From: Gammaproteobacteria bacterium
Lineage (GTDB): Bacteria > Pseudomonadota > Gammaproteobacteria > Burkholderiales > Burkholderiaceae_C
Length of the DNA stretch: 64,000 nt
Direction: 5' to 3'
Assembly: GCA_018828125.1 (NCBI GenBank)
Contig: JAHJWB010000006.1
Location: forward strand, 124,001 to 188,000
The position numbers and the translations under genes were made by a program. Under the pieces are notes generated by a model, which made no database searches, was not told the DNA's origin, and saw only the letters and a program-made list of their open reading frames with translations. Below, piece by piece: positions 7,114-63,707 of the stretch; positions within the stretch are counted from its first letter, which is position 1; each line of letters starts with the position of its first letter.

Positions 7114-9657
7114 ATGCCTGCAAAACTGCAACCGACCGGCCTCGACCCCAACATAGCCGCCCAGCGCCTGCGCGACGAAGGCCCCAACGAACTGGGCATC
7201 AGCCAGCGCCGTACGCTGCGCGACATGGCCTGGGACGTGGTGCGCGAGCCCATGTTCTTGCTGCTGCTGGGTGCAGGCGGCATCTACTTGGCAATGGGCG
7301 ACGCGCACGAGGCCCTGATCCTGCTGGGGTTTGTGGTGATCATCATGACCATCACGGTGCTGCAAGAGCGCCGCACCGACAACACCCTCAACGCCCTGCG
7401 CGACCTCTCCAGCCCCCGCGCGCTGGCGCTGCGAGGCGGCACCATGGTGCGCATCCCAGGCCGCGATGTGGTGCGCGAGGACCTGCTGATGATTGCCGAG
7501 GGCGACCGCATCCCGGCTGACGGCACCCTGCTGCAGGCGCACGAGCTGGCCACCAACGAGTCGATGCTGACCGGTGAATCCGAGCCTGTGGCCAAGCAGA
7601 TTGCCGACAAGGTATTTGCAGGCACGCTGGTGGTCAGCGGCCAGGGCCTGCTGCAGGTGACGGCCGTGGGGCGCAACACCGAGCTGGGCCGCATTGGCCA
7701 GTCGCTCGACACCATTGCGCTGCAGGCTTCGCCGTTGCGCGAAGAAATGGCACGGCTCACCCACAAGCTCGTGCTGATTGGCCTGTCGCTGTGTGTGCTG
7801 CTGGTGGCGTTGTTCTGGGCGCTGCGCGGCGACGCGTTGCAAGCCGTGCTGGCAGGCATCACCCTGGCCATGGGCATCCTGCCGCAAGAGCTTCCGGTGA
7901 TCATGATCGTCTTCTTGGCCTTGGCTGCACGGCGGCTGGCGGCGCAGCAAGTGCTGACCCGGCGGCTCAACGCCATTGAGACACTCGGGCAGACCACCGT
8001 GCTGTGCGTGGACAAGACCGGCACCCTCACGCAAAACCGCATGGCCGTGGCGGCGCTGTGCGTTGCGGGCGAGGAGCTAGATGTGTTGAACCTGCCTGCC
8101 GCAGCGGATGGCAGCGTGCTGCCCGAGGCCTTTCACGAACTGCTCGAATATGCCGTGCTGGCCAGCGAGATCGAACCGCACGACCCCATGGAGCAGGCCT
8201 TTCACCGAATGGCGGGAGATCATCTGGCAGGCACCGAGCACCTGCACCCCGCCTGGTCGCTGGCGCGCGAATATGAGCTCTCGCCCCAGCTGCTGGCCAT
8301 GAGCCACTTGTGGCGCGACGGCACATCCGCGCACGACACCGTGGCCACCAAGGGTGCGCCCGAAGCCGTGGCCGACCTGTGCCATCTGCCTGACGCTGAG
8401 CGGGCCACCGTCAGCGCCCAGGCCGCCCGTCTGGCCGACCGGGGCCTGCGGGTGCTGGGCGTGGCCAAGGCCCGGCACCGCGTGCAAGACGACTGGCCCG
8501 GCATTCAGCACGACTTTGACTTTGAATGGCTGGGCCTCGTGGCCCTGGCCGACCCCCTGCGACCCGAGGTGCCCCAGGCGATTGCAGAGTGTCACCAGGC
8601 GGGTATCCGCGTGGTGATGATCACGGGCGACCACCCCCGCACCGCACGCGCGATTGCAGCCCAGGGGGGCATCGCCCACGACCAGGTCGTCACCGGCGAT
8701 GAAATGGCCTTGATGTCCCCCGACATGCTCACCGGCAAAGTCCGGCAGGTCAGCGTGTTTGCACGCATCAAGCCGCACCAGAAACTGGCGCTGGTCGAAG
8801 CCCTCAAGGCCCAGGGCGAGGTGGTGGCCATGACGGGCGATGGCGTGAACGACGCCCCCGCCCTCAAGGCCGCCCACATCGGCATCGCCATGGGCCAGCG
8901 CGGCACCGACGTGGCGCGCGAGGCCGCAGCGCTGGTGCTGCTGCACGACGACTTCGCAGCCATTGTTCAGGCCATCCACCGGGGGCGGCAGACCTTTGCC
9001 AACCTGCGCCAGGCCATGGTCTACACGCTGGCCGTGCATGTGCCCATCATCGGGCTGGCGCTGCTGCCGGTGCTGTTTGGGCTGCCGCTGGTGCTGGCAC
9101 CGCTGCACATTGCGTTTCTGGAACTGGTCATCGACCCGGCCTGTTCCATCGTCTTTGAGGCCGAGGAAGGTGCGGCCGACCTTATGCAGCAGCCGCCGCG
9201 CCGCGCCGATGAACCCCTGCTGTCAGCGCGTCACATCTTGTTGAGTCTGGTGCAAGGCAGCGTGGTGACGGCCGCCGTGGTAGGGCTGTATGCCTGGCTC
9301 CTGGGTCAGCCGGCACATGCAGCCACCGCCAGCACGGCCGCGTTTGTGGTGCTGGTGGCGGCCAACGCCGCACTCATCCTGCCCAGCCGCAGCAGTGACA
9401 CCCCCAGCGTTTGGGGCTGGCGCAGCCTGTGGGCAGGCCTCACCCCGGTCAGCCTGTGGGTGGCAGGCGGCACACTGGCAGCGCTGACAGCCATCACCAC
9501 CGTGCCGTGGCTGTCCAAGGCCTTCAAGTTTGCACCGCTGTCGCCCTCGCACTGGTTCATGGCTCTGCTGGCCGGGCTGATGCTGACGGTGGTGTTTGCA
9601 GCCAACAAGCGGTGGCTGAAGCCAGCGACACTGGCGCACAATCATCCGTCTGCTTGA
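7114..9657 (+). CDS. P-type cation-transporting ATPase
   Basis: Ion pump of about 847 residues with every hallmark of a P-type ATPase: the actuator motif TGES, the catalytic aspartate in DKTGTLTQNRM, a nucleotide-binding segment around TKGAPEA, and the hinge TGDGVNDAPALK. Hydrophobic pairs lie near the N-terminus and around residues 245-285, and six helices close the protein. The helix-4 ion-site motif is PQELP, related to PEGLP of P2-type calcium pumps but not identical, so the ion cannot be named. The ATG at 7114 is preferred because upstream residues look non-coding. Cation-ATPase N-terminal features (GLDPNIAAQRLRDEGPNEL) fit P2 rather than heavy-metal pumps, which would carry CPC. It appears to be a single-gene unit. 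Confidence 0.92.
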   Translation: MPAKLQPTGLDPNIAAQRLRDEGPNELGISQRRTLRDMAWDVVREPMFLLLLGAGGIYLAMGDAHEALILLGFVVIIMTITVLQERRTDNTLNALRDLSSPRALALRGGTMVRIPGRDVVREDLLMIAEGDRIPADGTLLQAHELATNESMLTGESEPVAKQIADKVFAGTLVVSGQGLLQVTAVGRNTELGRIGQSLDTIALQASPLREEMARLTHKLVLIGLSLCVLLVALFWALRGDALQAVLAGITLAMGILPQELPVIMIVFLALAARRLAAQQVLTRRLNAIETLGQTTVLCVDKTGTLTQNRMAVAALCVAGEELDVLNLPAAADGSVLPEAFHELLEYAVLASEIEPHDPMEQAFHRMAGDHLAGTEHLHPAWSLAREYELSPQLLAMSHLWRDGTSAHDTVATKGAPEAVADLCHLPDAERATVSAQAARLADRGLRVLGVAKARHRVQDDWPGIQHDFDFEWLGLVALADPLRPEVPQAIAECHQAGIRVVMITGDHPRTARAIAAQGGIAHDQVVTGDEMALMSPDMLTGKVRQVSVFARIKPHQKLALVEALKAQGEVVAMTGDGVNDAPALKAAHIGIAMGQRGTDVAREAAALVLLHDDFAAIVQAIHRGRQTFANLRQAMVYTLAVHVPIIGLALLPVLFGLPLVLAPLHIAFLELVIDPACSIVFEAEEGAADLMQQPPRRADEPLLSARHILLSLVQGSVVTAAVVGLYAWLLGQPAHAATASTAAFVVLVAANAALILPSRSSDTPSVWGWRSLWAGLTPVSLWVAGGTLAALTAITTVPWLSKAFKFAPLSPSHWFMALLAGLMLTVVFAANKRWLKPATLAHNHPSA

Positions 9658-56820: not shown

Positions 56821-56936
56821 AAAGCCAAGGCACACTCCACAAACCACCGCCGTTGCCCGGCTTGCGAAGGTTGATCAGCGGTTGCGCGGCAAAATGCTCG
56901 CGGTACGATGCCGAACGAATCTCCACCAAGAACTAC

Positions 56937-58415
56937 ATGCAGAACGGCACACGTCTCGCCGCGGTCGACCTCGGCTCCAACAGTTTTCGCCTAGAAATCG
57001 GGCGCTATGAATATGGGCACATCCAACGCGTGGAGTACCTCAAGGAAACGGTGCGCCAGGGCAACGGCCTGGACGAAGACCGCAACCTGACCCGCGACGC
57101 CATGGAGCGTGGCTGGGCATGCCTTGCGCGCTTCGGTGAGCGCCTGGCAGGCTTCCCTCCTGCTCACGTGCGGGCCGTGGCTACGCAGACTTTGCGAGAA
57201 GCCCGCAACCGCGATGAATTTCTGTCACGCGGCCGCGAAGTCCTCGGTTACCCCATTGATGTGGTGTCTGGCCCCGAAGAAGCACGACTTATCTACCAAG
57301 GTGTGGCCCGCCTGCTCCCGCAGTCGGATGAACGCCGGTTGGTGGTTGACATCGGTGGTCGCTCCACCGAGCTGATCCTGGGCCAACAGTTCACACCCCA
57401 TGCAGTCGCGTCCTTCCGGGTGGGCAGTGTCGCCTGGTCACAACGCTACTTTGCAAAAGGCGAATTCAGCGCGCAGGCATTTTTGGCCGCCGAAATTGCA
57501 GCAAAAGCAGTGCTAGACGAAGCGCAAGCGACCTTTCGGCCCGGCACATGGGATATTGCCTACGGGTCGTCAGGCACCGCTGGGGCGGTGGGCGACGTGC
57601 TGGCCGCGGCAGGTGGCCCGCAGGGCCTTATCACCCGTGATGGACTGAACTGGCTGCAAGACAAAGTCTTGCGTGCGCAATCGGCAGACCGCTTGCGTAT
57701 GGAGGGGCTGAAAGAAGAACGCCGAGCCGTTATTGGAGGCGGCATCAGTGTGCTGAGAGCCGTTTTCGACCTTCTGGAAATTGACCAGATGCAAGTGGCC
57801 CAAGGGGCTCTGCGCCAAGGCGCACTGTATGACCTGTTGGACCGCGAACAACCCGGCACCGACCTACGCACCACCACAGTCAATGGGCTCATGCACCGGT
57901 TTGGTGTCGATAGAGAACATGCAGATCGAGTGGCACGCACAGCATGCGCGTTGTTTGACCAGGCGGCACCTGCGGGCAGCGAGCGCGCATCGCGCAAGCT
58001 GGACTGGGCAGCAAGGCTGCACGAGATAGGCTGCATCGTCTCGCACAGCGACCACCATCGGCACGGTGCCTATATCCTCGACAACACCGACGCTGCAGGC
58101 TTTGCTTTGCCGGAGCTGCATCGGCTGGGCGTGCTGGTACAAGGGCAGCGTGGCAAGGTTCGCAAGTTGGAACTCGATCTGGACGACTCAATCTTCGCGC
58201 TGCAACTGCTCAGCCTGCGGTTAGCCGTTGCCCTGTGCCACGCCCGCCGAGACCCCGATACCAAAGGACTCTCCCTGCAGCGCGATGATCGGCGTTTTCG
58301 CATCACCACCCGTTCAGGTTGGAGCGCTACCTACCCGCAGTCTGCCCATCTGTTGAGAGAAGAAATGCAGGCGTGGCAGAAGACACCTTGGGTGCTGGTG
58401 GCGGAGTTGCCTTGA
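56937..58415 (+). CDS. ppx: Exopolyphosphatase (Ppx/GppA family)
   Basis: Enzyme of 492 residues that removes terminal phosphates from polyphosphate, and may act on pppGpp. The ASKHA-fold phosphate loops are LAAVDLGSNSFRLEIGRYE and VVDIGGRSTELILG. The catalytic Glu lies near TQTLREARN, and GSSGTAGAVGDVL forms the third motif. The C-terminal HD-like domain includes LHEIGCIVSHSDHHRHGAYIL. ATG 56937 (MQNGTRLAAVDLGSNSF) is the natural start; upstream codons overlap the promoter. It is divergent from pstS, sharing a 255-base region with two Pho boxes. Confidence 0.95.
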   Translation: MQNGTRLAAVDLGSNSFRLEIGRYEYGHIQRVEYLKETVRQGNGLDEDRNLTRDAMERGWACLARFGERLAGFPPAHVRAVATQTLREARNRDEFLSRGREVLGYPIDVVSGPEEARLIYQGVARLLPQSDERRLVVDIGGRSTELILGQQFTPHAVASFRVGSVAWSQRYFAKGEFSAQAFLAAEIAAKAVLDEAQATFRPGTWDIAYGSSGTAGAVGDVLAAAGGPQGLITRDGLNWLQDKVLRAQSADRLRMEGLKEERRAVIGGGISVLRAVFDLLEIDQMQVAQGALRQGALYDLLDREQPGTDLRTTTVNGLMHRFGVDREHADRVARTACALFDQAAPAGSERASRKLDWAARLHEIGCIVSHSDHHRHGAYILDNTDAAGFALPELHRLGVLVQGQRGKVRKLELDLDDSIFALQLLSLRLAVALCHARRDPDTKGLSLQRDDRRFRITTRSGWSATYPQSAHLLREEMQAWQKTPWVLVAELP

Positions 58416-58440
58416 ACAGTTCATAAAAACGATATAAACT
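58412..58440 (+). promoter_or_regulatory. Candidate promoter of the histone-like gene
   Basis: TTGAAC (58412-58417), 17-base spacing, TAAACT (58435-58440). The -35 element overlaps the last codons of ppx. Confidence 0.5.
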
Positions 58441-58447
58441 GTTTATA
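58433..58447. promoter_or_regulatory. Palindrome over the promoter of the histone-like gene
   Basis: TATAAAC-T-GTTTATA, perfect 7-bp arms with a one-base centre, lying on the -10 region. It is a plausible self-binding site for the ribbon-helix-helix domain of the downstream product. Confidence 0.5.
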
Positions 58448-58467
58448 CCGTTTAATCAAAAACTGCC

Positions 58468-58977
58468 ATGACAACTTCCATTCCTGCATCGACACCCACT
58501 GCACCAGCCCCGCAAACATCCGCCCCAGCCAAGTCAGCAAAGCCTGTAAGTGCGCCGAAGGCTGCTCCCACTGCAGCGGCGAAGGCCGTCAAGGTCGCTC
58601 CAAAGCCCGCGGTCAAAAAGGCGCCCGCAGCAAAGAAAGTCGTGGTGACGAAAACGATCAAGGCAGCGACACCCATTGCAGCCAAGGACGCGAAGGTAAA
58701 GAAACCAAAGTTGGTGCGCGATAGCTTCACCATTCCCAAAGACGAGTACGCCGTTATTGAGACCCTCAAGCAACGCGCCTCCACTTTGGCCCACCCCGTC
58801 AAGAAAAGTGAACTGCTGCGGGCCGGCTTGAAATTGTTGGCAACTCTGACCGACAGCGGCCTGCGAACCGCGCTACAGGCCGTTCCATCGATCAAGACCG
58901 GGCGCCCGAAAGCAGAAGCTGCTGAGGCACCCAAGGCCTCCAACGCCAAGGCTCCAGCCAAGTCTGTCCGCAAATAA
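58468..58977 (+). CDS. Histone-H1-like tail fused to a ribbon-helix-helix-like domain
   Basis: Basic protein of 169 residues in three parts. Residues 1-78 are Ala/Lys/Pro-rich with repeated APKxA and PAKK-type motifs, like bacterial histone-H1-like tails. Residues 80-140 are folded: LVRDSFTIPKDEYAVIETLKQ, then AHPVKKSELLRAGLKLLATL, a strand followed by two helices as in ribbon-helix-helix DNA-binding domains. The last 20 residues are Ala/Lys-rich again. I know of no established function. It lies between ppx and the sixA-ppk1 unit, suggesting a tie to polyphosphate. In Pseudomonas, the histone-like protein AlgP is associated with polyphosphate granules, so a similar role is a reasonable hypothesis. 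Confidence 0.8.
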   Translation: MTTSIPASTPTAPAPQTSAPAKSAKPVSAPKAAPTAAAKAVKVAPKPAVKKAPAAKKVVVTKTIKAATPIAAKDAKVKKPKLVRDSFTIPKDEYAVIETLKQRASTLAHPVKKSELLRAGLKLLATLTDSGLRTALQAVPSIKTGRPKAEAAEAPKASNAKAPAKSVRK

Positions 58978-59028: not shown

Positions 59029-59068
59029 GTGCAATCGCCAGCTTTTACAGAAATTCTGGCGATTGCAC
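59029..59068. terminator. Perfect 13-bp inverted repeat at the 3' end of sixA
   Basis: GTGCAATCGCCAG (59029-59041) and CTGGCGATTGCAC (59056-59068) pair exactly over a 14-base loop. The right arm encodes the last residues of SixA. T-rich sequence is lacking, so it may act as a convergent terminator or transcript-end stabiliser. Confidence 0.5.
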
Positions 59069-59509
59069 GGTGATCAGCACCGTTTGACTCTCCTCCAGCC
59101 GCTGTCTCTGGCGCAGCCACCAGACGGAGCCCTTGCGCACGGCGCATTCTGGCGCCTGCAAGCCCAGTAGCTGGGCAATGGTCTGCCCCAGCACCGGCTG
59201 ATGTCCAACGATCAGCACCGCGCCGCGTGCCCGTGGCCACTGGGCTAAATCCAATACATCCTGTGGCATGGCGCCGGGCAAAAGCTCGGCGCGCATCTTG
59301 AACTTACGGCCCAGCGCACTCGCGGTCTGTTCGGTCCGCCGGGCGGGACTTGCCAGTACCCGCAAGCCTTCAGGCAGCTGGCGATCCAGCCACGCCGCCA
59401 TACGGGCTGCCTGTTTTTCGCCACGGGCGGTCAATGTCCGGGCGAGGTCATCACAACCGTCCCCAGGCTCCTCTGCCTCTGCGTGGCGCCACAGAATCAG
59501 GTCCATCAT
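59045..59509 (-). CDS. sixA: Phosphohistidine phosphatase SixA
   Basis: Histidine-phosphatase-superfamily enzyme of 154 residues. The catalytic motif is LILWRHAEAEEPGDG (RHG-type with Ala in place of Gly), the second His lies in VLIVGHQPVLGQT, and supporting Arg residues are in LASPARRTEQTA. SixA removes phosphate from phosphohistidine on phosphotransfer proteins; in E. coli a role with the nitrogen-related phosphotransferase system is described. The gene overlaps ppk1 by four bases (ATGA on the minus strand), so the two are coupled. This linkage with polyphosphate kinase, itself a histidine-phosphorylated enzyme, is notable. Confidence 0.92.
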   Translation of the reverse strand: MMDLILWRHAEAEEPGDGCDDLARTLTARGEKQAARMAAWLDRQLPEGLRVLASPARRTEQTASALGRKFKMRAELLPGAMPQDVLDLAQWPRARGAVLIVGHQPVLGQTIAQLLGLQAPECAVRKGSVWWLRQRQRLEESQTVLITVQSPEFL

Positions 59510-61710
59510 GCCGTTCCTTTTTCAATCCTGGCGACCAATCCAGAGGTCTTGGGCCCGTAGCGAACCATCAGTGCATCTTGCGCGCCAAGGCCATCCTGGG
59601 TGCGAGCGGCACGATCGTAGGTACCGCTTGCGTTCAGCGTCCATGCATCCCGGTCGTCATGGAGATACGCCACAAGACACTCATCCACGATCTGTTGACG
59701 CAGGCCGGGGTCCGTCACCGGCCACGCCAGTTCCACACGTCGCATCATGTTGCGATTCATCCAGTCGGCGCTGGAGAGATACAAGTCCTCCTGCTCACCG
59801 CTTCGAAAGTAAAAAACGCGTGTGTGCTCCAGAAATCGACCAATCACGGAGCGCACCCGAATGTTGTCGGTCGCGCCCGGCACCTGGGCTGCCAGCATGC
59901 AGGCTCCTCGTACGATCAGATCGATGCGCGCGCCACGCTGCCCGGCCAGAATCAATGCGCGGATCAAAGCCTCGTCGGTCAGGGCATTCATTTTGGCGAC
60001 GATGCGTGCATCTTCCCCTCGGCTTGCTGCGAAGCCGACCTGTTCAATCTTCTCGACCATTCTGTGGTGCAAGTGAAAAGGCGCCAGGATCAGCTTGCGC
60101 AATTTCGGTGGCCGGTTCTGGCTCGCGAGGTGATTGAAAACCCCGTCCATGTCGGCCGTCGTTTCAACGTCGCCGGTCAGGTAACTCAGATCGGTGTACA
60201 GCCTTGCGGTACGCACGTTGTAGTTGCCGGTAGACAAATGCCCATAACGCCGCAGCTGACGCCCTTCCCGGCGCGTCACCAGCAGCATTTTGGCGTGTGT
60301 TTTCAGCCCTACTACGCCATATACAACCTGCGCACCAATGGACTCCAGCGCTTCCGCCCAGTTGATATTGGCCTCTTCGTCAAACCGCGCCTTCAATTCG
60401 ACAACGGCCATTACTTCCTTGCCCCGGCGTACCGCCTCACTCAACAGGTCCATCAGTTCGGAATCAGCACCTGTGCGGTAGATCGTCTGCTTGATGACCA
60501 AGACATCGGGGTCATTCACGGCCTCCCGCAAGAATTCAAGCAAGCCGTCAAAGCTCTCGAAGGGCTGGTGGATCAACACGTCCCTCTGGCGCAGTTGCTC
60601 CATGATGGAAACCCCGGGCTGCAGCTGCCTTGGCCACGCTGAGCTCCATGGCGCGAAAAGCAGCGAAGGATCGTTCACCAGATCCACCAGCTGAGTCAGC
60701 CGGACCAAATTGACAGGGCCGTGTACGCGGTAAAGAGCGGCGCGGGGCAAGCCAAATTGCTCCAGCAGAAAGTGCGCAAGGAAGGACGAGCAGCCTGCGG
60801 ATACTTCCAGCCGAACCGCCTGTCCATAGTGGCGATGTTGCAACCCTTGTCGCAACGCTGTGCGCAAGTTTCGGACATCCTCCTCATCCAGCGCAAGGTC
60901 TGAGTGGCGTGTAACGCGGAACTGAGAAAACTCGGTGACCTCGCGACCCGGGAACAGATCATCGAGATGCGCGCGAATGATGCTTGAAAGACTGACGAAC
61001 AGCGACTCTTGAGGGGCCACCTTGGCAGGCATGCGAACCAGCCGGGGCAGCGCACGCGGCACTTTGACAATGGCGATTTCATTTTCGCGGCCGAAGGCGT
61101 CACGCCCCTTCAGACGCACAATGAAGTTCAATGACTTGTTGGCCACCTGGGGAAACGGGTGCGCGGGATCCAACCCCACGGGGATCAGCAAGGGCCGCAC
61201 TTCCTGCACAAAATAGTCATGCACCCACCGCTTTTGCGCACTGGTCCGATCTCCGTGCGAAACAATTCGAATTCCGAGCTGGGCAAAAGCGGGGACTAAA
61301 ACATCGTTGAACAAGGCGTACTGGCGCTCTACCAGATCATGGACTTTGGCAGCCAGCGCCTCAAACGAGTCCGTGGTGTAAAGCCCCTTGGTCTCGCCCT
61401 TTTGGGCAGCAGTAATGTGCGCCTCCGCACGGACCTCAAAAAACTCGTCCAAGTTCGAGGACACGATACACAGGTAGCGCAGCCGCTCCAGCAATGGCAC
61501 GTCAGCACGAACTGCCCAATCAAACACCCGCTCATTGAAGGCCAGGATGCTGTGGTCGCGGTCCAGAAATACGTGCGGCGACCGGCCAGGGACTACAGCG
61601 CTGCTTGGCACGTCAACTTCATGTGCGTGCGATGGGGAACCGTTGTCAACCCCGATGTTGGAGGGCTCCGGATGCAGCGACGGAACGTCTTGAGGGGGCA
61701 TGGGCAACAT
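59506..61710 (-). CDS. ppk1: Polyphosphate kinase 1
   Basis: Enzyme of 734 residues that makes polyphosphate from ATP through a phosphohistidine intermediate. The N-terminal domain begins DRDHSILAFNERVFDWA and contains RLRYLCIVSSNLDEFFEVR. The catalytic His is in VVGLKTHAKMLLVTRRE, and the phospholipase-D-like domain continues with HLSTGNYNVRTARLYTDLS and FYFRSGEQEDLYLSSADWMNRNM (the second catalytic site, here FRSGEQEDLYLSSADWM). The N-terminus has about 45 extra low-complexity residues. A Pho box lies 51 bases upstream, within the end of the preceding gene. Confidence 0.97.
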   Translation of the reverse strand: MLPMPPQDVPSLHPEPSNIGVDNGSPSHAHEVDVPSSAVVPGRSPHVFLDRDHSILAFNERVFDWAVRADVPLLERLRYLCIVSSNLDEFFEVRAEAHITAAQKGETKGLYTTDSFEALAAKVHDLVERQYALFNDVLVPAFAQLGIRIVSHGDRTSAQKRWVHDYFVQEVRPLLIPVGLDPAHPFPQVANKSLNFIVRLKGRDAFGRENEIAIVKVPRALPRLVRMPAKVAPQESLFVSLSSIIRAHLDDLFPGREVTEFSQFRVTRHSDLALDEEDVRNLRTALRQGLQHRHYGQAVRLEVSAGCSSFLAHFLLEQFGLPRAALYRVHGPVNLVRLTQLVDLVNDPSLLFAPWSSAWPRQLQPGVSIMEQLRQRDVLIHQPFESFDGLLEFLREAVNDPDVLVIKQTIYRTGADSELMDLLSEAVRRGKEVMAVVELKARFDEEANINWAEALESIGAQVVYGVVGLKTHAKMLLVTRREGRQLRRYGHLSTGNYNVRTARLYTDLSYLTGDVETTADMDGVFNHLASQNRPPKLRKLILAPFHLHHRMVEKIEQVGFAASRGEDARIVAKMNALTDEALIRALILAGQRGARIDLIVRGACMLAAQVPGATDNIRVRSVIGRFLEHTRVFYFRSGEQEDLYLSSADWMNRNMMRRVELAWPVTDPGLRQQIVDECLVAYLHDDRDAWTLNASGTYDRAARTQDGLGAQDALMVRYGPKTSGLVARIEKGTA

Positions 61711-61744: not shown

Positions 61745-61750
61745 AGTATT
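61745..61750 (-). promoter_or_regulatory. -10 element of ppk1
   Basis: AATACT on the minus strand, ten bases after the Pho box, next to the glycosyltransferase stop codon. Confidence 0.5.
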
Positions 61751-62838
61751 TAACGCCCAGATGACAAAGATGTGACAGTGTTTGTGACAGTCACGCAGAC
61801 TTTTGCACCTGAATGGGCTGGTACCAGGTGCTGCTGAAATAGCTTCGCCGCTTCGGCCCACGTGAAATCGAGCGCCCGACTGCGCGCTTCTGACCGCGCC
61901 ACGGCCAAAGCCCCCTGGGCTGCTACCAGCAGACTGTCATGAAGCACGCCCCCACGGGGCGGTTGCGCCGAGTGCGCCCCCAGCACCTCCATGGGACCAT
62001 CCACCGGGAAAGCAGCCACCGGGGTGCCACATGCCATGGCTTCCAGCATCACAAGGCCAAAGGTTTCAGAGCGGCTAGGGAACACAAACACATCGGCAGC
62101 GGCATAAACCTGCGCCAAAGCGGCCCGATCCAGAATGCCCAGCCAGCGCACGTGAGGGTACTTTGCTTTCAACCTTGCCTCCAGAGGGCCCACACCGCAC
62201 ACGACTTTGGTGCCGGGCATGTCCAGCTGCAAAAAAGCCTCGATATTTTTCTCGTAGGAAATACGCCCCACATAAAGGGATACGGGATGCGCCAATGTCC
62301 CAGTAAGTGGGCTCGGACGAACTTCTCCATGAAAGGGAAAGGCCTGGGTATCAACACCGTGAGTCCATGGCTTCAGATTGCAGAAACCCCGCCGCGCCAG
62401 CATCTGCAATACACCTTGCGTGGGCACCATGATCCCGGACGAAGGTCGGTGAAAATGCCGGAACAGCTCATATCCCCATGACAGCGGAACCCGCAATGCA
62501 GCATGGAGAATTTCAGGGAACCGCGTATGAAACGCGGTGGTGAAGGCAAGGCGATTGCGCACGCAGTATCGACGTCCGGCCCAGCCCAGAGGACCTTCCG
62601 TCGCCAGATGAATGGCATCAGGCTTCATCGCCTCAAGCATTTGAGTCAAATGCTTGTTTGGCCGCACGGCCAAGTCAATGCCCGGATAGCCCGGACAAGG
62701 CCGCGTAGAGAACTGGCCGGGGTGCACAACCTGCACCTCGTGCCCGACTGCTTCCAGTTCGTGCACCAGTTCCCGCAACGTAGTCACCACGCCATTGACC
62801 TGTGGCATCCACGCGTCTGTGACCAAGGCGATTTTCAT
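61750..62838 (-). CDS. GT4-family glycosyltransferase
   Basis: Retaining glycosyltransferase of 362 residues with the GT-B fold. The N-terminal domain starts [20 protein letters not shown]. The C-terminal donor domain has [16 protein letters not shown] and the E-x7-E motif in [22 protein letters not shown]. Similar proteins transfer mannose or glucose to lipid acceptors, and genes like this are often paired with an LpxH-like hydrolase and an OlsB-like acyltransferase, as here, hinting at glycolipid or ornithine-lipid synthesis under phosphate limitation. The last 16 residues ([16 protein letters not shown]) are encoded by the Pho-box repeats of ppk1. It overlaps the upstream gene by four bases. 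Confidence 0.9.
61761..61778 (-). promoter_or_regulatory. Pho box upstream of ppk1, inside the glycosyltransferase gene
   Basis: Minus strand CTGTCAC-ATCT-TTGTCAT (7+4+7). A third CTGTCAC unit lies 12 bases further upstream (61784-61790), giving three TGTCA units in a row. Confidence 0.85.
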
Positions 62839-63707
62839 ACAGCAACCTCAGCCTTCATGGGGCGGGCATGGGTGGTCGATACCGCAGGCCATTGCACCAG
62901 CTCAAGCCGACCGTCCAGATGCTCGACAAGCGCTGTGTGGCTCTCCACCCAATCGCCATCATTGCAGTACAACGTGCCACTAATTTCACGCATCTCGGCG
63001 CGGTGGATATGTCCACAGACTACGCCGTCGAGGCCTCGCCGCCGCGCCTCGGTGGCCACGGCAACTTCAAAATCGGTCACGTAGTTGAGCGCCTTTTTTA
63101 CCTTGCCCTTCAGGTACGCCGACAACGACCAATACGGCAAGCCCATGCGTGCACGCAGTGTGTTGAGGTGGCGGTTGAGCTTGAGGGTGAACTCATACAG
63201 GTTGTCGCCCAGGTACGCCAGCCATTTGGCGCATTGAATGACTCCATCAAAGTGGTCTCCGTGTGTAACCCACAAACGTCGACCATCGGCCGTGGTGTGC
63301 ACCGCATCGGCCACTACCTCGATACCGCCGAAAGAGTGACCCACAAAGGCGCGCGCAAACTCATCGTGGTTGCCTGGCACAAACACCACCCGACAGCCCT
63401 TGCGGGCGCGCCGCAGCAGTTTTTGCACCACGTCGTTGTGCGCCTGCGGCCAAAACCATTTGCGGCGCAGCTGCCAGCCGTCGACGATGTCTCCCACCAG
63501 ATACAAGCAATTGCTGGGGTGGTGTTTGAGAAAGTCCAACAATGCTTCGGCTTGGCAGCCTGGAGTGCCCAAATGCAGGTCGGATATGAACACCGCGCGG
63601 AACCTGCGTGCCCCCGGGGACTGGGCATGCACCTCGGCGCCAGTGTCATCGGAACCGATGGTCTCGCTCATCCACGGGCCGAGTGCGTCAAACGCGGCGC
63701 GCATCAC
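62835..63707 (-). CDS. LpxH-like metallophosphoesterase
   Basis: Calcineurin-type phosphoesterase of 290 residues. The dimetal motifs run in order: [41 protein letters not shown] and [10 protein letters not shown]. The pattern resembles UDP-2,3-diacylglucosamine hydrolase (LpxH/LpxH2), but many such proteins beside glycosyltransferases act on other substrates. Start at ATG 63707, or ATG 63671 (MSETIGSDD). Its ends overlap both neighbours by four bases, so acyltransferase, phosphoesterase and glycosyltransferase form one tightly coupled operon. Confidence 0.88.

Follow-up and report, generated by a model that had tools for sequence, protein, structure and literature searches.

The stretch of DNA analyzed here (the window) comprises 64,000 nucleotides of contig JAHJWB010000006.1 (positions 124001 to 188000; assembly GCA_018828125.1, order Burkholderiales). 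Amid genes of polyphosphate metabolism it carries an open reading frame (ORF) for a small basic protein in which an Ala/Lys/Pro-rich tail of the histone H1 kind is joined to a core resembling the ribbon-helix-helix (RHH) DNA-binding domain (Table 1). The gene is the lone ORF between ppx, upstream on the same strand, and the convergent sixA-ppk1 pair, and a putative operator array of GTWTAWAC-like units lies immediately ahead of it.

The neighbors were identified by profile scans. The ppx ORF matches Pfam Ppx-GppA (E = 4.7e-74) and scores 301.7 bits with the NCBIfam exopolyphosphatase model, slightly below its cut-off of 307; the sixA ORF is above the cut-off for Pfam His_Phos_1 and, at 70.7 bits, slightly below that of NCBIfam sixA (74.5); and the ppk1 ORF reaches 856.8 bits with TIGR03705 (cut-off, 465.85). 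ORFs for pst and phoU, named by eye, lie on the opposite strand before ppx, and this block is kept in relatives. The original prediction had placed the gene between ppx and ppk1, from position 58412 onward. The ORF is present, as are ppx, ppk1, and SixA, but strictly speaking its immediate neighbors are ppx and sixA, ppk1 coming after sixA, and a start at 58412 would include the last nucleotides of ppx.

In the source genome (5.18 Mb), the single strong match to the protein is the window gene itself. Searches of the window protein against PHROGs (E ≤ 5) and against Pfam and NCBIfam (E ≤ 1) gave no matching family, and there were 0 matches among the phage records searched. It is the conserved core that defines the protein family, with no Pfam or NCBIfam match for the window protein.

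Table 1. Positions in the window of the gene, its parts, its upstream region, and its neighbors
Feature	Position	Strand	Basis or remark
H1-tailed RHH-like protein gene	58468..58977	+	169-amino-acid (aa) ORF, ATG start
N-terminal Ala/Lys/Pro tail, residues 1-79, presumably disordered	58468..58704	+	sequence composition
Conserved core, residues 80-148: strand RDSFTIP, helix A, KKSELLRAG helix B, C-terminal helix	58705..58911	+	secondary structure predicted from profile alignment
KTGRP motif, residues 143-147	58894..58908	+	conservation; AT-hook-like by eye, no Pfam match
Operator array (putative), four GTWTAWAC-like units, 9-bp period	58423..58457	+	units at 58423 (6/8), 58432 (7/8), 58441 (8/8), 58450 (7/8)
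Palindrome TATAAACTGTTTATA, inside array	58433..58447	.	exact match
ppx (Ppx-GppA phosphatase)	56853..58415	+	first in-frame ATG 56937; stop codon 58413-58415
sixA-like histidine phosphatase	59045..59509	-	Pfam and NCBIfam profile scans
ppk1 (polyphosphate kinase 1)	59506..61710	-	Pfam and NCBIfam profile scans

A protein family largely of one order

A protein search scored 8000 candidates and identified 5330 of them as homologs (E ≤ 1e-3). Among the 120 matches listed, nearly all the names are "hypothetical" or "uncharacterized," and one homolog has a UniRef name that starts "Histone H1-like nucleoprotein H"; genera with the gene among the genome-contig loci described below (L001 to L080) include Acidovorax, Diaphorobacter, Curvibacter, Malikia, Limnohabitans, Ramlibacter, and Methylophilus. 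Sulfuricella and Gallionella are among the relatives of the f15 and f25 proteins, respectively.

Loci for comparison came from several sets. The first (L001 to L080) resulted from a peptide-pattern search of genome contigs and holds 80 of at least 86 confirmed matches, mostly from Comamonadaceae and not independent of each other; some of their flanks stop at contig ends. Genome draws provided the others. The gene was present in 43 of 200 genomes drawn order-wide and in 62 of 120 (119 genera) drawn from the window's own taxonomic family. Of the 45 places in the order draw, 40 were retrieved with wider flanks (the f38 places G124, G162, and G197 were left out, and G000 and G049 were counted in the family set); of the 65 in the family draw, 60 were analyzed, leaving out the window's own, a partial G788 match, G790, G778, and a second G814 place, which falls inside a stretch already retrieved and was given no separate count. 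As some loci recur between sets (L199 = L024, L206 = L033, and L246 = L078), the 181 homologs correspond to 178 distinct ones. In the wider draws, the gene was found in 7 of 274 genomes of the class (two of the window's own family and five labeled as outside the order, one of these a strong match) and in 8 of 299 of the phylum, all eight within the order. Because of these class and phylum counts, the family appears to be chiefly confined to the window's order, with few outsiders. The strong outsider (G446:C1:3063804-3064004, L161; E = 1.3e-28) may reflect transfer. One homolog on a contig labeled Chitinophaga pinensis (L078, CALPRQ020000013.1) resembles that of Malikia (L079) and adjoins sixA-ppk1; it probably belongs to a mislabeled metagenome bin.

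A basic tail joined to an RHH-like core

The basic, histone H1-like Ala/Lys/Pro tail of the original prediction was borne out, residues 1 to 80 of the window protein having a net charge of +15 and the whole protein one of +25. With the first ATG taken as the start, the N-terminal tail could be measured in 178 of the 181 homologs and has a median length of 81 aa, a net charge of +15, and an A+K+P fraction of 0.62; this start is possibly too far upstream in L137, L156, L157, L224, and L230, which are among the loci where the operator was missed. Three homologs (L201, L214, and L232) have only a short N-terminal tail and carry instead, C-terminal to the core, an A/K/P stretch with a net charge of +12 to +16. 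Since the tail thus switches termini with its composition kept, the comparison suggests selection for its make-up.

In the core, RDSF and KTGRP are separated by a constant distance in every homolog of the first set (81 of 81, including that of the window; FTIPKDEY was a search pattern for this set, KTGRP was not). KTGRP occurs in its strict form in 164 of the 181 homologs (161 of 178 distinct) and in a loose form in 174, and by eye its lysine-flanked GRP resembles the center of an AT-hook. In an order-wide alignment of 47 cores (A2, from which the divergent L143, L144, L145, L147, and L152 and the near-repeats L151, L154, and L157 had been removed beforehand), the invariant positions are R-D of the strand, the second K of KKSE, R of LRAG, and G-R of KTGRP.

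Pfam RHH_1 matched 4 of the 47 cores at E ≤ 1, always below threshold (best E, 0.055). With hhalign, A2 was aligned to RHH_1 domains from genomes of the same order (22 of 25 read) with a local score of 25.7 and a probability of 74.5, a score attained by none of 150 column shuffles (maximum, 15.4) and compared with 8.4 for the reversed profile; the global alignment gave a score of 21.8, a probability of 15.7, and P = 3.7e-4. The alignment places the family's strand on the RHH_1 strand and KKSELLRAG on the second RHH_1 helix. Searches of the PDB with the alignments yielded weak matches, mostly to designed repeat proteins, together with two ParD chains (E = 1.6 and 1.9), and a PDB search with the single window protein gave no useful match. 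By profile, then, the core is probably a member of the RHH superfamily, which supports the predicted union of an RHH-like domain with an H1-like tail; a fold unlike RHH, which would have spoken against it, is not what the comparison with RHH_1 indicates.

A putative operator that travels with the gene

The exact palindrome TATAAACTGTTTATA, from which self-regulation had been predicted, is indeed present upstream of the gene. With up to three mismatches allowed, it is unique in the window (other places expected, 0.04; standard deviation, 0.24; 1 of 100 shuffles as good), and elsewhere in the source genome every place differs from it by at least two mismatches. Relatives share ATAAACGGTATAAACTGTTTATACCGTTTAT around it, and among the 80 listed loci 34 have the exact 15-mer and 65 match it at 13 or more of the 15 positions. 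A 35-column matrix, built from 44 unique sites of L001 to L050, was then applied to 130 further loci (127 distinct), with 5200 shuffles as the control: 119 loci (116 distinct) scored above the 99th percentile and 109 (106 distinct) above the shuffle maximum, with the 15-mer mostly starting 28 to 50 bp ahead of the start codon.

The palindrome is part of a larger structure. At -9, +9, and +18 bp from the best GTWTAWAC, further units match on average at 5.2, 6.4, and 4.6 of 8 positions versus about 2.5 in shuffles. Three or more units in 9-bp register were found in 116 of 181 upstream regions (114 of 178 distinct), while 10 regions lack any unit of at least seven matches; among 905 shuffles, 157 passed the first bar, 5 of these with two units and 0 with three. 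Conservation therefore argues for self-regulation much more strongly than the original prediction did, but through a 9-bp-spaced GTWTAWAC array, not a single palindrome.

The putative site travels with the gene, because loci away from polyphosphate genes and plasmid copies keep it. Among 43 test loci without ppx, sixA, ppk1, or phoU nearby, 39 scored above the 99th percentile and 36 above the shuffle maximum, as did three of the four plasmid copies (32.0, 52.2, and 20.1), the fourth (L342, 4.5) exceeding the percentile only. Conversely, the site is rare away from the gene. When one mismatch was allowed, the two-unit pattern had 57 sites in the 120 family genomes and its reversed form 26; 52 of the 57 fall in the 900 bp preceding the gene's core. 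Of the 62 gene-positive genomes, 38 have a site (36 have one at the gene), compared with 2 of the 58 gene-negative ones (Fisher P = 2.6e-12). Just five sites lie elsewhere, among them a second operator-like two-unit site in G791 (G791:C13:35339), some 10 kb from the one at the gene.

A search of the source genome for a regulon beyond the gene, allowing up to three mismatches, found the site patterns to be rarer than the reversed control (22 versus 49 and 13 versus 65), so no regulon is claimed. A site tied to the gene, with no second good site in the genome, is the pattern expected of an autoregulator without a regulon. In the window the array ends 10 bp before the start codon, a position at which it would overlap the promoter, and it is probably an autoregulatory operator. 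Short repeated or palindromic operators at the own gene are common, if not universal, among RHH-type proteins, and conservation points to one here; MetJ, CopG, and Arc are RHH proteins with tandem operator repeats.

Recurrent linkage to polyphosphate and phosphate genes

The gene-neighborhood linkage implied by the original prediction extends well beyond the genus and takes several gene orders; a lack of conserved linkage, which would have counted against the prediction, is thus not what was observed. Of the 80 listed loci, all but L051, L052, and L071 (77 loci) carry ppx, sixA, or ppk1 on the retrieved flanks, and 66 have the exact order ppx > gene > < sixA < ppk1. Acidovorax delafieldii and Curvibacter gracilis are examples of species with the gene in the window's order. 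In the family draw, ppx, sixA, ppk1, or phoU occurs within 5 kb in 39 of 60 loci and within 1 kb in 38 of 60; outside the family, where up to 8 kb was taken on each side, these genes occur within 8 kb in 21 of 40 loci and within 3 kb in 18 of 40. None of 20 control windows from gene-positive genomes, placed at round coordinates and 10 kb long as for the family set, contained any of them.

The arrangements differ. The gene lies between sixA and ppk1 (f25, Gallionella-like), before phoU and ppx (f15), after ppx (L122 of f14 and L131 of f8), by sixA, ppx, and ppk1 (f9), or, in f39, either beside pstS with ppk1 4 kb away or beside ppx. A tree of 69 columns implies 17 linkage changes, 3 of them forced by starred branches; because it is too poorly resolved for counting linkage gains, we claim several arrangements and no number of events. 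Three of the plasmid copies are annotated (a Variovorax plasmid record is unannotated). The one on Paraburkholderia pBN1 is beside phoU, and that on Aquabacterium pTB101 is beside a "phosphate transport regulator" gene (sub-threshold PhoU_div match, E = 0.0032) and a PPDK_N gene. On a Comamonas aquatica plasmid (L340, NZ_CP104280.1, 26043-26492), a homolog with an operator-like site directly follows arsH where an arsenic resistance cluster ends; arsenate mimics phosphate.

At the unlinked loci, an all-against-all comparison of neighbors of at least 80 aa (42 of the 43 loci) found, the family itself aside, one gene that recurs in 4 of 42 (by eye an EAL-type cyclic-di-GMP protein) and two that recur in 3 of 42.

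Comparison with known proteins

The closest parallel is AlgP of Pseudomonas aeruginosa. According to the available text of the report (PMC9239181), AlgP combines an N-terminal part, predicted to be helical, with a C-terminal KPAA domain of 154 aa, localizes to polyphosphate granules and spaces them, a function for which it needs the KPAA tail, and appears spread over the nucleoid when the polyphosphate kinases are absent; a granule-DNA tether was speculated upon. In the accessible part of a 2025 review (PMC13052382), AlgP is the sole protein listed for polyphosphate, next to PhaM, PhaF, and PhaH for polyhydroxybutyrate (PHB). The present family shares with AlgP, as described there, a Lys/Ala/Pro-rich H1-like tail (in most homologs; L069, L078/L246, and L250 are exceptions), probable DNA association, and a polyphosphate context, which here is one of gene linkage only. 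It is set apart from the published description of AlgP by its RHH-like core, its usually N-terminal tail, KTGRP, and the operator array.

PhaF, PhaM, and PhaH tether granules by nonspecific DNA binding, with a histone-like domain in PhaF and PhaM, and differ in that their N-terminal ends bind PHB granules, as the review's accessible part has it (PMC13052382). The omega protein of pSM19035, in the text available (PMC9499535), likewise combines an RHH core with contiguous short repeats by its own promoter, but its unit is 7 bp and nonpalindromic, whereas here near-palindromic GTWTAWAC units of 9-bp period go with an H1-like tail, and no regular ParA partner was found. Lysine-rich low-complexity sequence is also seen in Hc2 of Chlamydia and BpH1 of Bordetella. 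We know of no RHH core in Hc2 or BpH1, nor in PhaF, PhaM, or PhaH. In the open-access literature (most subscription papers being outside the search), no polyphosphate-associated RHH protein or matching beta-proteobacterial H1-like protein was found among the titles and abstract openings covered.

A candidate tether between polyphosphate granules and the nucleoid

The sequences themselves establish the family, its architecture, the array with its close tie to the gene, and the recurrent linkage; from these patterns we infer the following scheme. Dimers formed by the RHH core would grip DNA, sequence-specifically on GTWTAWAC units and loosely elsewhere, with KTGRP perhaps contributing minor-groove contact, while the presumably disordered polycationic tail would contact polyanions, chiefly polyphosphate. 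Nascent polyphosphate granules would in this way be held to the nucleoid and spaced along it, as proposed for AlgP. Free dimers would stack side by side on the 9-bp array and switch their own gene off; as polyphosphate builds up and draws the protein away, the gene would be derepressed, so that supply would track the granule load. The protein would be probably RHH by membership and, by hypothesis, AlgP-like in its working. We favor this DNA-bound, self-limiting, titration-sensed tether of polyphosphate-storing beta-proteobacteria, because AlgP shares its ingredients and omega sets a precedent for repeats over the own promoter, and we give it a chance only just short of even.

Several observations weigh against it. 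Titration by polyphosphate as the sensing step is a suggestion from the logic of the scheme, and other polyanions would serve the tail as well as polyphosphate. No ppx, sixA, ppk1, or phoU is near 21 of the 60 family loci and 19 of the 40 loci outside the family. Total charge does not differ between linked and unlinked family proteins (39 linked, 21 unlinked; P = 0.66), and L069, L078/L246, and L250 have a short or hardly charged tail; L069, L078, and L246 are linked to sixA-ppk1, which argues against the tail being essential. Of the 130 test loci, 11 have no site above the 99th percentile; 24 of the 62 gene-positive genomes lack a two-unit site at one mismatch or less; and a promoter scan found no sigma-70-like promoter. 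Finally, of 25 gene-negative genomes checked (23 of the 58 in the family draw plus 2 from another draw), 24 yielded ppk1, in all 24 cases with sixA or ppx within about 1.5 kb. Because these relatives keep the enzymes together, the protein is not needed for them or for their clustering, and since many copies are also unlinked, it is an accessory. For the same reasons the linker role is a good hypothesis and not a result. In one gene-negative relative (G093:C1:1527780-1532272), the ppk1 match is split in two, with about 2.4 kb between the pieces, as an interrupted gene would be.

A broader claim, that this unnamed family is the polyphosphate-chromosome tether of a beta-proteobacterial order, invented independently of AlgP and measuring polyphosphate by titration, we consider on the whole doubtful. 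Were it true, granule load would directly set tether supply, the core reading the 9-bp array and the tail being drawn off by polyphosphate. How polyanionic polyphosphate granules associate with a polyanionic chromosome is an open question, for which the family offers a testable candidate in a large order, with the array as a built-in reporter and gene-free relatives as natural controls.

Other interpretations

The protein might instead be an autoregulating, general nucleoid protein of the H1-like kind, using core and tail to compact or bridge DNA and having no particular polyphosphate role, its place in the cluster reflecting a shared starvation need or operon history. That loci without polyphosphate neighbors encode equally charged proteins and keep the operator (39 of 43), and that gene-negative relatives retain the polyphosphate enzymes, would fit such a protein. 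Yet ppx, sixA, ppk1, and phoU are by far the commonest neighbors, in several gene orders and families, and two of the three annotated plasmid copies sit by phoU or by the "phosphate transport regulator" gene, so that we rate this explanation as rather unlikely. The same linkage, and the f25 order in particular, with the gene between sixA and ppk1, could also point to a local transcription regulator of ppx, sixA-ppk1, and phoU, the tail being a co-factor or an aid to DNA affinity and polyphosphate a possible inducer; many RHH proteins are regulators. What makes this improbable is the position of the sites: in the source genome those with at most one mismatch are all upstream of the gene itself, not before ppx or ppk1, and 52 of the 57 sites in the 120 family genomes lie before the gene.

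A tether or partition factor for other cargo, be it a PHB granule linker of the PhaM/PhaF type or an omega/ParG-like RHH protein with a parS-like array, is a very improbable reading, although it has precedents: the RHH ParB protein omega has contiguous repeats over its own promoter (PMC9499535, in the text available), and PhaM and PhaF bind DNA via histone-like domains (PMC13052382, accessible part). One homolog (L120, genome G139) adjoins a ParA/MipZ-like ATPase (7170-7802, minus strand; CbiA E = 1.2e-11, MipZ E = 9.8e-11), a single, suggestive case. No adjacent ParA was found in the window, no such family recurs in the 42 unlinked loci, and this ATPase was the only ParA/MipZ-like protein among 20 neighbors scanned. 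Because no non-family neighbor recurs in more than 4 of these 42 loci, there is no regular ParA or pha partner there, and the array occurs at a single place in the source genome. That the protein is the RHH half of a toxin-antitoxin pair we find barely credible. A weak likeness to ParD (seen by Pfam for 1 of 30 cores, at E = 0.18, besides the two PDB chains) would hint at it, but the 42 unlinked loci show no recurrent partner of at least 80 aa (smaller ORFs not being compared), and in the window the gene stands alone between ppx and the convergent sixA.

Additional observations

Two genomes have two copies of the gene, in G814 on opposite strands and 4 kb apart (G814:C117:2960 and 6896) and in G824 on separate contigs. 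In the window, ppk1 is followed at 61750-63707 by genes for a glycosyltransferase and a metallophosphoesterase, which occupy the same position in many relatives.

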